A stretch of 64,000 bases of DNA from Fimbriimonadaceae bacterium (GTDB lineage: Bacteria; Armatimonadota; Fimbriimonadia; Fimbriimonadales; Fimbriimonadaceae): contig JABAQM010000001.1 in the NCBI GenBank assembly GCA_019187105.1, positions 1,612,001-1,676,000 of the forward strand, written 5' to 3'. The stretch's first letter is position 1. The number at the start of each line of letters is the position of its first letter. Both the position numbers and the translations under genes were made by a program. This document shows positions 60,124-64,000 of this stretch, piece after piece. The notes below the pieces were generated by a model. That model did no database searches. It had not been told where the DNA came from and saw nothing but the letters and a program-made list of their open reading frames with translations.

Positions 60124-60171
60124 CCGCAATGATCAGTGTAGCCGTTGCGCATCCGGCATACTGAATTCCTG

Positions 60172-62754
60172 GTGAAGTCGGCAAAAACCCCGATGCTGCA
60201 GCAGTACTTCCAAGCGAAGGAAGAGCATCCCGGCGTGCTCTTGGCGATGCGGGTGGGCGACTTCTATGAGTTCTATGGCGAGGATGCCGTTACCGCATCC
60301 CAAGTTCTGGAAATCACACTCACCGGCAGAGAAGACGGGAGCAATGGGCGGATACCGATGGCAGGGGTTCCGTACCACTCCGTCGAGAAATACATCGCAC
60401 GCTTGATCGCCGCCGGTCACAAGGTGGCCCTCTGCGACCAGATCGAAGATCCCAAGCTGGCCAAGGGCCTCGTCCAGCGCAAGGTGACTCGCGTCCTGAC
60501 CCAGGGCACGATCGTGGAAGACTCGATGCTCCCCGGCTCCAGCAACAACTTCCTCGCCGCCATTTGCGTCGTCGATGGCCACGCTGGAATCGCCACCCTG
60601 GACTCGTCCACGGGCGAGTTCATGGTGACCGAGCTGCGGGGCGAACAGCTCCGCGATCGCCTCTTGCAGGAGCTCGCCCGCATCCGCCCTTCCGAGCTGC
60701 TGGTCCCCGATACGTCCGCAGATGTCGGTGACCAAGCCCGAACGCTGCTCGGCACGGCCACCACCGCCGCAGATCCTCCCAGAATCGACCGGGCAACGCG
60801 AAGCCTCCTCGAACACTTCGACGTCGCCAATCTCGCGGGTTATGGATGCGCCGATAAACCGTCCGCTATCGTTGCCGCTTCGATGGTCCTTGGCTATGCC
60901 AGCCGAAACGGCCTCAATCTCCGCCATGTCGACACGCTCGCCACGTATTCTGTCGATGGCTTCCTCCTCCTCGACCCCGCCACGCGGCGTTCGCTGGAGC
61001 TCACCCAAAACCTGACCGATGGCTCTCGGCGGTTCACGCTCCTGTCCATCCTTGATCAGACCGTCACGAGCATGGGATCGCGCCTGCTGAGACGATGGAT
61101 CGAAACCCCGCTCATCGACTTGCCTGCCATCCACTCGCGGCAGGAGTCGATTGGCAGAATGGCCGACCAGCTCATGAACCGCGCCGACTTGCGAACTGGA
61201 CTGGAGCGGGTGGCGGACTTGGAGCGGTTGGTCAGCCGCTGCGCGACGGGAATTGCGGGTCCTCGCGATCTTGCTGCCCTCAAGGGAACGTTGGTGGCGA
61301 TACGCGACCTCCGACCGGCAATCCTCAAATTCGCTTGGGGCCGCGTCCAGGAGCTCCGCGAGCAGATTGCCGACCATGGCGATCTCGAAGCCGTCCTGAC
61401 CAAGGCGGTCGTCGATGATCCTCCGCATTCCATCCGCGACGGTGGGGTCATCAAGCCGGGTTACGATACCGAGCTCGACAAGCTGCGCTCTCTGTCCAGC
61501 AGCGGAAAGCAGTACATCATCGACCTCGAAAAAACGGAACGGTCCGCGACCGGCATCTCCAGCCTGAAGGTGGGCTTCAATTCGGTCTTCGGTTATTACC
61601 TCGAAGTTCCAAAGGCCCACATCGACAAGGTCCCCGCCACCTACATTCGCAAGCAAACGACTGCAAACGGCGAGCGCTACATTACCGCCGAGCTCAAAGA
61701 TCATGAGTCGGCGGTGCTGGGGGCCGAGGAGAAGGCAGTGGCGCTCGAAGCCGATCTCTTCGCGCGTCTCCGCAACCGCGTAGCCGATCAATCCTCGAAG
61801 CTGCTCCGAAGCTCGCGGGCACTGGCCGAGATCGATGCCCTCAGTGCGCTGGCCGAGGTAGCTGTCCGAAACCGCTTTGTCTGTCCGGATGTCATCGACG
61901 GCCACGGCATCGAAATGGCCGCCGGCCGCCATCCGGTCGTCGAAGCAAGTCAAGCCAGCTTCGTCCCCAACGATCTCACGCTCGGTGGAGAGGGAAGACC
62001 GCACCTCGCCATCCTTACCGGTCCGAACATGAGCGGAAAATCAACCTATCTGCGCCAGGCCGCTCTGATCACGTTGATGGCTCAGATCGGAAGTTTCGTG
62101 CCGGCGGCCTCGGCGAAAATAGCGGTCTGCGACCGGATCTTCGCCCGGATCGGCGCCAAGGACGAGCTCGCCCTCGGACAAAGCACGTTCATGGTCGAGA
62201 TGGTGGAAAGCGCCAACATCCTCAACCACGCGACCGATCGAAGCCTCGTCATCCTCGACGAGATCGGAAGGGGTACCAGCACGTTCGATGGACTCGCGAT
62301 CGCCTGGGCCATGGCCGAAGACCTCGCCGACCGCGGCGTGAAGACACTCTTTGCGACCCACTACCATCAGCTCAATGCGCTGGCGGAGCAGGTCGAGGGG
62401 GTAACCAACCTGCGCGTCAGCGTGGAGGAGATCGGCGACGACATCATCTGGACTCACCGCGTTCTCCAGGGCGGAACCGACCGCTCCTACGGCATCCATG
62501 TCGCCCGCATGGCAGGACTGCCAGGGCGGGTGTTACAGCGGGCAAAGGCCATTCTCGCCGACCTCGAGTCGGACGAGCGTGCGCCCCGTGCCAACGTCCA
62601 ACACCGGAGCCTGCAGCTTACGCTCTTCGATGGCGAGGAGCCAGAGATCGTCAAGGCCCTGCGCGGATTGTCGATCGATGCGATGACGCCGATCCAGGCC
62701 CTGCAAACGCTCGACGCTTGGAAGGCCAAGTTTGCCAAAGACGACGAGGATTAG
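60172..62754 (+). CDS. mutS: DNA mismatch repair protein MutS
   Basis: An 860-residue mismatch-recognition ATPase. TPMLQQYFQAKEEHPGVLLAMRVGDFYEFYGEDA contains the Phe-x-Glu mismatch wedge. Connector, lever and clamp domains follow; the ATPase has Walker A TGPNMSGKSTYLRQAAL (about 615), Walker B LVILDEIGRGTSTFDGLAIAW and the histidine in FATHYHQL. The C-terminal dimer helices end ALQTLDAWKAKF. GTG 60172 is chosen; ATG 60193 is also possible. A CATACT sits 9 bases upstream of the GTG. The next gene starts at the base after its stop. Confidence 0.97.
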   Translation: MKSAKTPMLQQYFQAKEEHPGVLLAMRVGDFYEFYGEDAVTASQVLEITLTGREDGSNGRIPMAGVPYHSVEKYIARLIAAGHKVALCDQIEDPKLAKGLVQRKVTRVLTQGTIVEDSMLPGSSNNFLAAICVVDGHAGIATLDSSTGEFMVTELRGEQLRDRLLQELARIRPSELLVPDTSADVGDQARTLLGTATTAADPPRIDRATRSLLEHFDVANLAGYGCADKPSAIVAASMVLGYASRNGLNLRHVDTLATYSVDGFLLLDPATRRSLELTQNLTDGSRRFTLLSILDQTVTSMGSRLLRRWIETPLIDLPAIHSRQESIGRMADQLMNRADLRTGLERVADLERLVSRCATGIAGPRDLAALKGTLVAIRDLRPAILKFAWGRVQELREQIADHGDLEAVLTKAVVDDPPHSIRDGGVIKPGYDTELDKLRSLSSSGKQYIIDLEKTERSATGISSLKVGFNSVFGYYLEVPKAHIDKVPATYIRKQTTANGERYITAELKDHESAVLGAEEKAVALEADLFARLRNRVADQSSKLLRSSRALAEIDALSALAEVAVRNRFVCPDVIDGHGIEMAAGRHPVVEASQASFVPNDLTLGGEGRPHLAILTGPNMSGKSTYLRQAALITLMAQIGSFVPAASAKIAVCDRIFARIGAKDELALGQSTFMVEMVESANILNHATDRSLVILDEIGRGTSTFDGLAIAWAMAEDLADRGVKTLFATHYHQLNALAEQVEGVTNLRVSVEEIGDDIIWTHRVLQGGTDRSYGIHVARMAGLPGRVLQRAKAILADLESDERAPRANVQHRSLQLTLFDGEEPEIVKALRGLSIDAMTPIQALQTLDAWKAKFAKDDED

Positions 62755-63633
62755 ATGACGTTCCTCATCGGTCATCCTGCGGTGTCTTGGTCGCCCTGGC
62801 TCGCCGAACATGGTAGCAATGTCGTCTCGCTGGATGTCCAAATGCCGCCGTTTGGGCCGCCGGGCTGCATCACCGCCGGCACCGCCGATACCCCGACCGG
62901 CTGGCGATTCGTGGGGTCATTGGATCCGACCCGGTACCCGTTGGCGATGCTGGCGGGTCTACGGGACCTCGCGTCGCCGGACTGCACGATACTTGGGTTT
63001 CCCTATCGGCCATCTCCCGTGGGCCGCCAGCTCCTTATCGAATGCATACGACAGTGCCGGCCGGAACGGATACTGGCGCCGTCCGAACTATCGGGAGACC
63101 TCATGATAGGAGCCACGTTCGAGTATGTCGCGAATCTCCCAGCAGCTCCCACTCATCATGCCCAGGCCGCGAAGAGACGCGGGCGATGGATCGAATGCCT
63201 GGAGGCTTGCGAAACCCACCATCTGACCATGCCAGGTCTCATCATCGAAGGGGTGCGACTCGGCTCAGGCATCGCGCTCAGAAATCTGGGGGGTGGAATC
63301 GACTATGCCGAGGTTTGCGGCAAAACGGTCCTGCTGGCGTCTCGCGAGCCTCTCGATGACCACGCCGTCGCTCATACCCTCGATGTCGCTCATGCAGACC
63401 GTGCCGTCGTCGTTACCCCTGAACATTACATCGGACTGATCTGCGCCTTCGCCAGAGAAGATGGGACCGACTTTGGCGTGGGCAGGCTGACCGATATCGA
63501 CTTCGCCGCCCAAACCATCACTTGCCGATGCACGGCGGTCGCCCCTGCACCGGTCAAGGTCCTCAAGCTCGGTTCCATACGCGTCGATGAAACCGGCCGC
63601 GAGCTCCCGCAGGAGAAGCCTTGGGCGGTCTGA
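62755..63633 (+). CDS. Clp1/Grc3-like polynucleotide-kinase-family protein with degenerate P-loop
   Basis: A 292-residue cytoplasmic protein directly behind mutS. By pattern it follows the Clp1/NOL9/Grc3 and bacterial Clp1/GlmU-family order: a strand and loop (FLIGHPAVSWSPWLAEHG) where Walker A GxxxxGKS/T should be, then VVSLDVQMPPFGPPGCIT resembling the family's DxDxGQ..PPG, FVGSLDPTRYPLAMLAGL resembling its VGxxSP segment, CTILGFPYRPSPVGRQLL in the switch position, and a C-terminal barrel (GLICAFAREDGTDFGVGRLTDIDF...LKLGSIRVDETGREL). The lysine of Walker A is missing, so kinase activity is doubtful. The family call is mine from motif order and needs a profile search; position after mutS suggests co-expression. 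Confidence 0.55.
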   Translation: MTFLIGHPAVSWSPWLAEHGSNVVSLDVQMPPFGPPGCITAGTADTPTGWRFVGSLDPTRYPLAMLAGLRDLASPDCTILGFPYRPSPVGRQLLIECIRQCRPERILAPSELSGDLMIGATFEYVANLPAAPTHHAQAAKRRGRWIECLEACETHHLTMPGLIIEGVRLGSGIALRNLGGGIDYAEVCGKTVLLASREPLDDHAVAHTLDVAHADRAVVVTPEHYIGLICAFAREDGTDFGVGRLTDIDFAAQTITCRCTAVAPAPVKVLKLGSIRVDETGRELPQEKPWAV

Positions 63634-63650: not shown

Positions 63651-64000
63651 ATGCGGCTCCTCGTCATTCGGCATGGGCAAACTGCCTGGAATGCCGAAGG
63701 AAGAGCGCAGGGCCACACCGACATTTCCCTTGACGAAACCGGCCTTCACCAAGCCCGCCTCCTCGCCGCCAGCCTCGACGACATGCCGCTGCGCCGAGTC
63801 GTAACCAGCGATCTGAGCAGAAGCCGGGAAACGGCCCAGCTCGTTGCCGACCGCCTCGGCTTGGAATTGATTGTCGAGCCCAGGTTTCGAGAGAGCTGCA
63901 TCGGCGAGTTCGAGGGCCGGCACTATACGGAGTACCGTGCCGAAATCGCGCGGCTTGCCGGGGTCCATCAAGCGCCTTGGTACGGGGTGAGCGTGGGCGG
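63651..64000 (+). CDS. Histidine phosphatase (phosphoglycerate-mutase-like), partial
   Basis: The first 116 residues of a gene that continues beyond the window. MRLLVIRHGQTAWNAEGRAQGHTDISLDETG carries the RHG catalytic histidine; VVTSDLSRSRETAQLVADRLGLE and FRESCIGEFEGRHYTEY complete the family pattern with the proton-donor Glu. Members include cobalamin-pathway phosphatases, ribonuclease H fusions and general sugar phosphatases; this one cannot be narrowed. It follows the Clp1-like gene by 17 bases and may be co-transcribed. Confidence 0.94.
   Translation, partial: MRLLVIRHGQTAWNAEGRAQGHTDISLDETGLHQARLLAASLDDMPLRRVVTSDLSRSRETAQLVADRLGLELIVEPRFRESCIGEFEGRHYTEYRAEIARLAGVHQAPWYGVSVG

Follow-up and report, generated by a model that had tools for sequence, protein, structure and literature searches.

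The 64,000-nucleotide stretch of a Fimbriimonadaceae genome analyzed here (the window) encodes, directly after mutS, a 292-residue protein that is almost certainly a descendant of the Clp1/Grc3 family in which the active site has been lost. We refer to this protein as pClp1. Armatimonadota widely encode a 5'-OH polynucleotide kinase of the Clp1/Grc3 type, and pClp1 would be its orthologue, inherited vertically, with the active site lost in two steps. Because that site is gone, the isoelectric point (pI) has become acidic, and conservation of the lid helix and C-terminal domain slightly exceeds that in canonical relatives, we favor the view that pClp1 is a pseudo-polynucleotide-kinase serving as a non-catalytic protein partner, which the sequences and the predicted structure make reasonably probable. 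That it retains a non-catalytic function of some kind we consider very likely.

Common descent with Clp1/Grc3 is accepted because profile links and independent structural matches agree. An AlphaFold2 (AF2) model of the window protein, computed from a 15-row alignment, has a predicted local distance difference test score (pLDDT) of 90 and a predicted template-modeling score (pTM) of 0.85. In this model the fold is predicted to be intact, with the beta1-loop-alpha1 P-loop core, the lid helix and the C-terminal beta domain that together characterize Clp1. A Foldseek search of the PDB with the model gives 23 matches below E 0.001, all of them Clp1, Grc3 or NOL9 (E 4.8e-12 to 2.7e-6), and the first match after these stands at E 0.07. 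The structural Z score is 20.4 against human CLP1 over 225 residues and 8.0 for the top non-Clp1 fold; the signal recognition particle GTPases among the structural matches (Z 8 or less) reflect the general P-loop core. In profile comparisons the family of the window genome (f1) aligns by hhalign with families f2–f4, relatives from the same order whose Clp1 motifs are complete, at E 3e-36 over 280 columns, and with its sister family (f5) at E 3e-52 over 305 columns. The f1 profile also finds canonical Clp1 loci in whole-genome searches (E 1e-29 to 1e-38). Pfam CLP1_P is matched by all eight f2–f4 proteins scanned (best E 7e-37), and the f2–f4 profile retrieves C. elegans Clp1, human Clp1, NOL9 and Grc3 from the PDB. 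The Clp1/Grc3 relationship proposed in the initial annotation is thus borne out.

Some searches weigh against this relationship. With 13.2 bits, over residues 22–50 only, the window protein stays below the CLP1_P gathering score of 26.6; the Pfam scan lists no CLP1_P match in other f1 members, and the window protein alone has no match in NCBIfam. Neither the f1 profile nor the window protein alone finds a Clp1 chain when the PDB is searched by sequence, and therefore the sequence link passes through intermediates. Weak PDB profile matches to PurK-like ATPases and MamM involve short stretches at E 0.005 or worse and are ascribed to chance. Judged by the motifs that define the kinases, pClp1 is homologous to the polynucleotide kinase family but falls outside it.

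The four Clp1 motifs (Walker A, Walker B, clasp and lid) were taken as defined in PMC6777427 and counted in an alignment of 99 homologues, among them 32 canonical sequences (12 from f2–f4 and 20 from other families) and six from f5. The segments quoted in the initial annotation are all present in the window protein, namely GHPAVSWSPW (residues 6–15), LDVQMPPFGPPG, FVGSLDP (residues 52–58) and, near the C-terminus, LKLGSIRVDETGREL. GHPAVSWS aligns column for column with GxxxxGK[ST], and LDVQ with the Walker B stretch, so that the reported loss of Walker A is confirmed. The Walker A lysine is found in 32/32 canonical Armatimonadota Clp1 proteins and in five of the six from f5, but in none of the 57 f1 sequences with a residue at that position, 55 of which have Trp there; the f1 substitute reads GxxxxSWR. 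Lysine-bearing homologues, whose existence the initial annotation had raised, thus occur in other families and not in the same family. The sixth f5 protein has His at this position. At the f5 locus L029:1501-2445, in one genome, the Walker A lysine has been lost independently (GAPGSGHR).

The other motif sites are eroded as well. Of Walker B, 53/57 f1 sequences retain the Asp (D27), and the Gln of DxGQ is lost, being Met in the window protein. The clasp [TSL]xGW is absent, the canonical Armatimonadota DTxG having been replaced in f1 by other residues with R.[ST]P. The lid RxxxxR is absent too; the canonical sequences have K/R and R at its two positions in 32/32 cases, whereas the window protein has P and Q and f1 mostly F/L and Q. 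In the numbering of C. elegans Clp1, D27 corresponds to D151 and the two lost lid positions to R288 and R293; R297 is kept as R141 in the window protein, and W145 and R168 are present in all 58 full f1 sequences. Conservation in the P-loop, Walker B and clasp regions is lower in f1 than in the canonical set, while it is slightly higher in the lid helix (2.82 versus 2.58 bits) and the C-terminal domain (2.42 versus 2.21 bits). The median pI has moved from basic (8.6 and 9.3 in two canonical sets) to acidic (5.7 in f1).

A loose protein search (limit E 10) of the window genome and 60 relatives gave matches in 49/61 genomes, and a 22-row profile (A1) gave matches in 46/61 at E ≤ 0.001. With a wider profile (A6) there are matches in 180/237 Armatimonadota genomes and in 63/76 f1 genomes. 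Related loci were gathered with a 7-row alignment, as the single protein or the 22-row alignment gave nothing usable. The ratio of non-synonymous to synonymous substitution rates (dN/dS) is 0.037–0.167 in close f1 pairs and 0.064–0.147 in canonical pairs, and the pClp1 gene is under purifying selection. That 63/76 f1 genomes carry an orthologue, together with dN/dS well below 1 in close pairs, argues that the reading frame is not a chance one. In the tree f1 and f5 form separate clades (support 100/99 and 98/73, respectively), both set apart from all canonical sequences by a long branch (100/100). On the aligned sequences, the loss of Walker A traces to a single clade, f1. Neither f1 nor f5 has the clasp, the Walker B Gln or the second lid Arg any longer, which points most simply to a loss in a common ancestor. 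The simplest reading is therefore a loss in two steps, in which the clasp and lid, along with the Walker B Gln, would have eroded before f1 and f5 split and the P-loop would have gone in the f1 ancestor.

It is improbable, though it is the strongest of the alternatives, that pClp1 is a decaying relic heading for loss and without a specific function. All four motif sites are eroded, some members (L035 and L119) are degenerate, and the gene is missing from 13/76 f1 genomes. At three loci the neighbors persist without it: at two of these, 45 and 88 bp (matched ends) separate a Ycf46-like AAA gene (upstream) from the phosphatase described below, and the gap shows no trace of Clp1; at the third the AAA gene is followed directly by Lnt. 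These absences show that the gene is dispensable in some lineages, and they count both against a retained function and for a relic. However, a relic is difficult to reconcile with the dN/dS of close pairs (0.04–0.17), with Trp12 in 55/57 sequences and W145 and R168 in all full ones, or with the slightly higher conservation of the lid helix and C-terminal domain. In the non-catalytic partner that we favor, these two regions would mainly bear the role that has been kept.

The initial annotation had pictured a kinase-dead protein that binds nucleic-acid 5'-ends and is produced together with MutS for mismatch repair. The arrangement in the window is as it described, with the mutS stop (TAG, 62752–62754) followed on the next base by the ATG of the pClp1 gene (62755), in the same frame, and the upstream reading frame is a genuine, intact MutS with all five MutS domains. 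Retention of D27, R91 and R141, whose counterparts in canonical Clp1 are conserved, would also suit such a binder. Yet mutS lies directly upstream at only one of 58 f1 loci (those with at least 700 bp of upstream sequence) and at none of 38 other loci, so that neither a lasting coupling nor a gene that always follows mutS in related genomes can be upheld, and a conserved mutS operon was rejected. It is local rearrangement alone that makes mutS a neighbor of pClp1 here; at L066 and L116 mutS is found 2.76 kb downstream. The clasp (the RNA-binding motif) and the lid positions are lost, and the shift in pI, from about 9 to about 5.7, argues against end binding. We therefore regard a retained 5'-end-binding role tied to MutS as quite unlikely.

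As an in-frame TAG directly precedes the ATG, an N-terminal extension of pClp1 is impossible; a missed extension containing a P-loop was considered and excluded on this ground, and orthologues start at most a few residues earlier. Only this TAG parts mutS and pClp1 (62752–62757), so that stop-codon readthrough would yield a MutS-pClp1 fusion, but there is no sign of readthrough. The reading frame of pClp1 ends in TGA.

The lysine, clasp and lid positions were lost together, and for this reason, given established P-loop chemistry, kinase activity of pClp1 is very unlikely; the protein would be unable to bind or hydrolyze ATP in the manner of the family. An enzyme that still depends on nucleoside triphosphates, with the remodeled SWR loop in place of the P-loop, would be in keeping with the retained Walker B Asp (53/57) and the conservation of the new loop itself. 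Against this, the Lys, the Thr/Ser, the Gln and both lid positions are gone together, and we know of no P-loop kinase of the Clp1 fold that works without the lysine, so that this possibility is, if anything, slightly poorer than end binding. Pseudoenzymes often regulate active paralogues, but the notion that pClp1 is a regulatory pseudo-subunit of an active Clp1 in the same cell is highly improbable, as it is contradicted by genome searches in which such a paralogue was sought and a canonical CLP1_P protein was found in 0/37 f1 genomes, and as the window genome has one family copy.

For pClp1 as a non-catalytic partner, the likeliest counterpart would be the histidine phosphatase encoded 10–50 bp downstream, and we put it forward tentatively as the leading candidate. 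A PF00300 gene lies within 100 bp downstream on the same strand at 45/59 f1 loci, 6/6 f5 loci and 8/20 loci of other families, and at 0/12 f2–f4 loci. In the window genome it is about 20 bp away, and Lnt is next in order in f1 and f5; these two genes, and not mutS, are the conserved neighbors. The window phosphatase is nearest to CobC/GpmB-like models, below their cut-offs. Nearly all f1 genomes retain the catalytic His and Arg of the phosphatase, and there are only one or two histidine phosphatase genes per genome at E 1e-10. The phosphatase overlaps the Clp1 stop in several loci of other families. Since the pairing is seen beside canonical Clp1 genes too, it probably predates the loss of activity. 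The idea of this partner is weakened by the phosphatase not being adjacent at 14/59 f1 loci, nor at any of the 12 canonical f2–f4 loci. A further step, which we think possible but rather doubtful, is that rebuilding of the P-loop produced a conserved SWR motif with a new purpose, most likely that of docking or regulating the adjoining phosphatase, with a kinase-phosphatase pair becoming a scaffold-phosphatase pair.

The canonical Clp1 loci with a histidine phosphatase about 2–23 bp downstream, often overlapping, are L121–L123, L125, L126, L134, L135 and L137, and diverse Armatimonadota families may have a kinase-phosphatase operon of which the papers searched make no mention. Often divergent and upstream of canonical Clp1 there is, at L122, L125, L126, L127, L128, L129, L131 and L134, a protein of about 160–195 amino acids with an N-terminal hydrophobic stretch. 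Among the genomes examined, a full canonical RtcB ligase (E 1e-150 or better) is present in most of those of f2/f3 that have canonical Clp1 (for example G041, G038 and G000). In f1 an RtcB-like gene is divergent where present (24/37 genomes, E 1e-41 to 1e-70) and is otherwise not found. The losses of canonical Clp1 and of canonical RtcB run in parallel in f1, although this is essentially one clade. Feature coordinates are collected in Table 1.

Table 1. Features of the pClp1 locus, in window coordinates
Feature	Position	Strand	Basis
Gene for the predicted P-loop-less Clp1/Grc3-family pseudo-polynucleotide-kinase (pClp1), 292 aa	62755..63633	+	Open reading frame, AF2 model, PDB matches, profile links
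GHPAVSWS, residues 6–13, at the Walker A GxxxxGK[ST] position; Trp12 at the Lys site	62770..62793	+	Alignment of 99 homologues
LDVQMPPFGPPG, residues 26–37, Walker B region; Asp27 aligned to C. elegans Clp1 D151, next Gln lost	62830..62865	+	Alignment
LGFPYRPSPVGR, residues 80–91, clasp position (canonical DTxGY...R); clasp lost, Arg R91 kept	62992..63027	+	Alignment
Lid helix, residues 131–150; two lid positions (C. elegans R288, R293) lost; R141 (= R297) and W145 invariant or nearly so	63145..63204	+	Alignment
C-terminal beta domain, homologous to that of Clp1/Grc3	63205..63630	+	AF2 model, structural comparison, conservation
mutS, directly upstream; adjacency in this genome only among those examined	60145..62754	+	Open reading frame, domain scan
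Start of histidine phosphatase (PF00300, 214 aa, runs past the window edge), conserved neighbor; Lnt next, beyond the window	63651..64000	+	Domain scan, locus comparison

In the open-access literature we found no papers on a P-loop-less Clp1 relative in bacteria or on Clp1 in Armatimonadetes or Fimbriimonadaceae, and no relevant papers on Clp1 with MutS. According to PMC6777427, Clp1 is extremely rare among bacteria (14/1,543 species), yet Clp1-like genes, by the count of 180/237 genomes, are widespread in this phylum. The stepwise loss at an inherited locus in related bacteria, from canonical through loss of the clasp and Walker B Gln to loss of the P-loop, would provide a natural set for asking why a pseudo-kinase is kept. 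Armatimonadota Clp1 genes are often directly upstream of a phosphatase-family gene, and whether this gene bears on RNA-end processing is a question that seems not to have been raised.

pClp1 shares its fold and C-terminal domain with Grc3/NOL9 (structural Z 15.6–17.8), which differ from it in being Walker A-bearing kinases of pre-rRNA processing with a Las1 partner. It resembles Thermus scotoductus Ts-Clp1 (PMC6777427; CLP1_P) in having a full-length homologous chain that lacks the eukaryotic N-terminal domain, and like canonical bacterial Clp1, which is usually single-copy in Armatimonadota genomes, it is encoded once; unlike the latter it is acidic and keeps only the Walker B Asp of the kinase motif residues. 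Clp1 proteins inactive as polynucleotide kinases are known from yeast and Trypanosoma (Clp1-t1; PMC10598085), and pClp1, going by its sequence, would likewise be a Clp1-family protein that lacks the activity. Yeast Clp1 has been solved with bound ATP (PDB titles) and its P-loop is therefore usable, whereas in pClp1 the P-loop itself is replaced. In hnRNPUL1 (PMC13066744) the domain is PNKP-type rather than Clp1-type and still binds nucleotides and RNA, but, as we propose for pClp1, it is a polynucleotide kinase domain without catalytic activity whose role lies in interactions.
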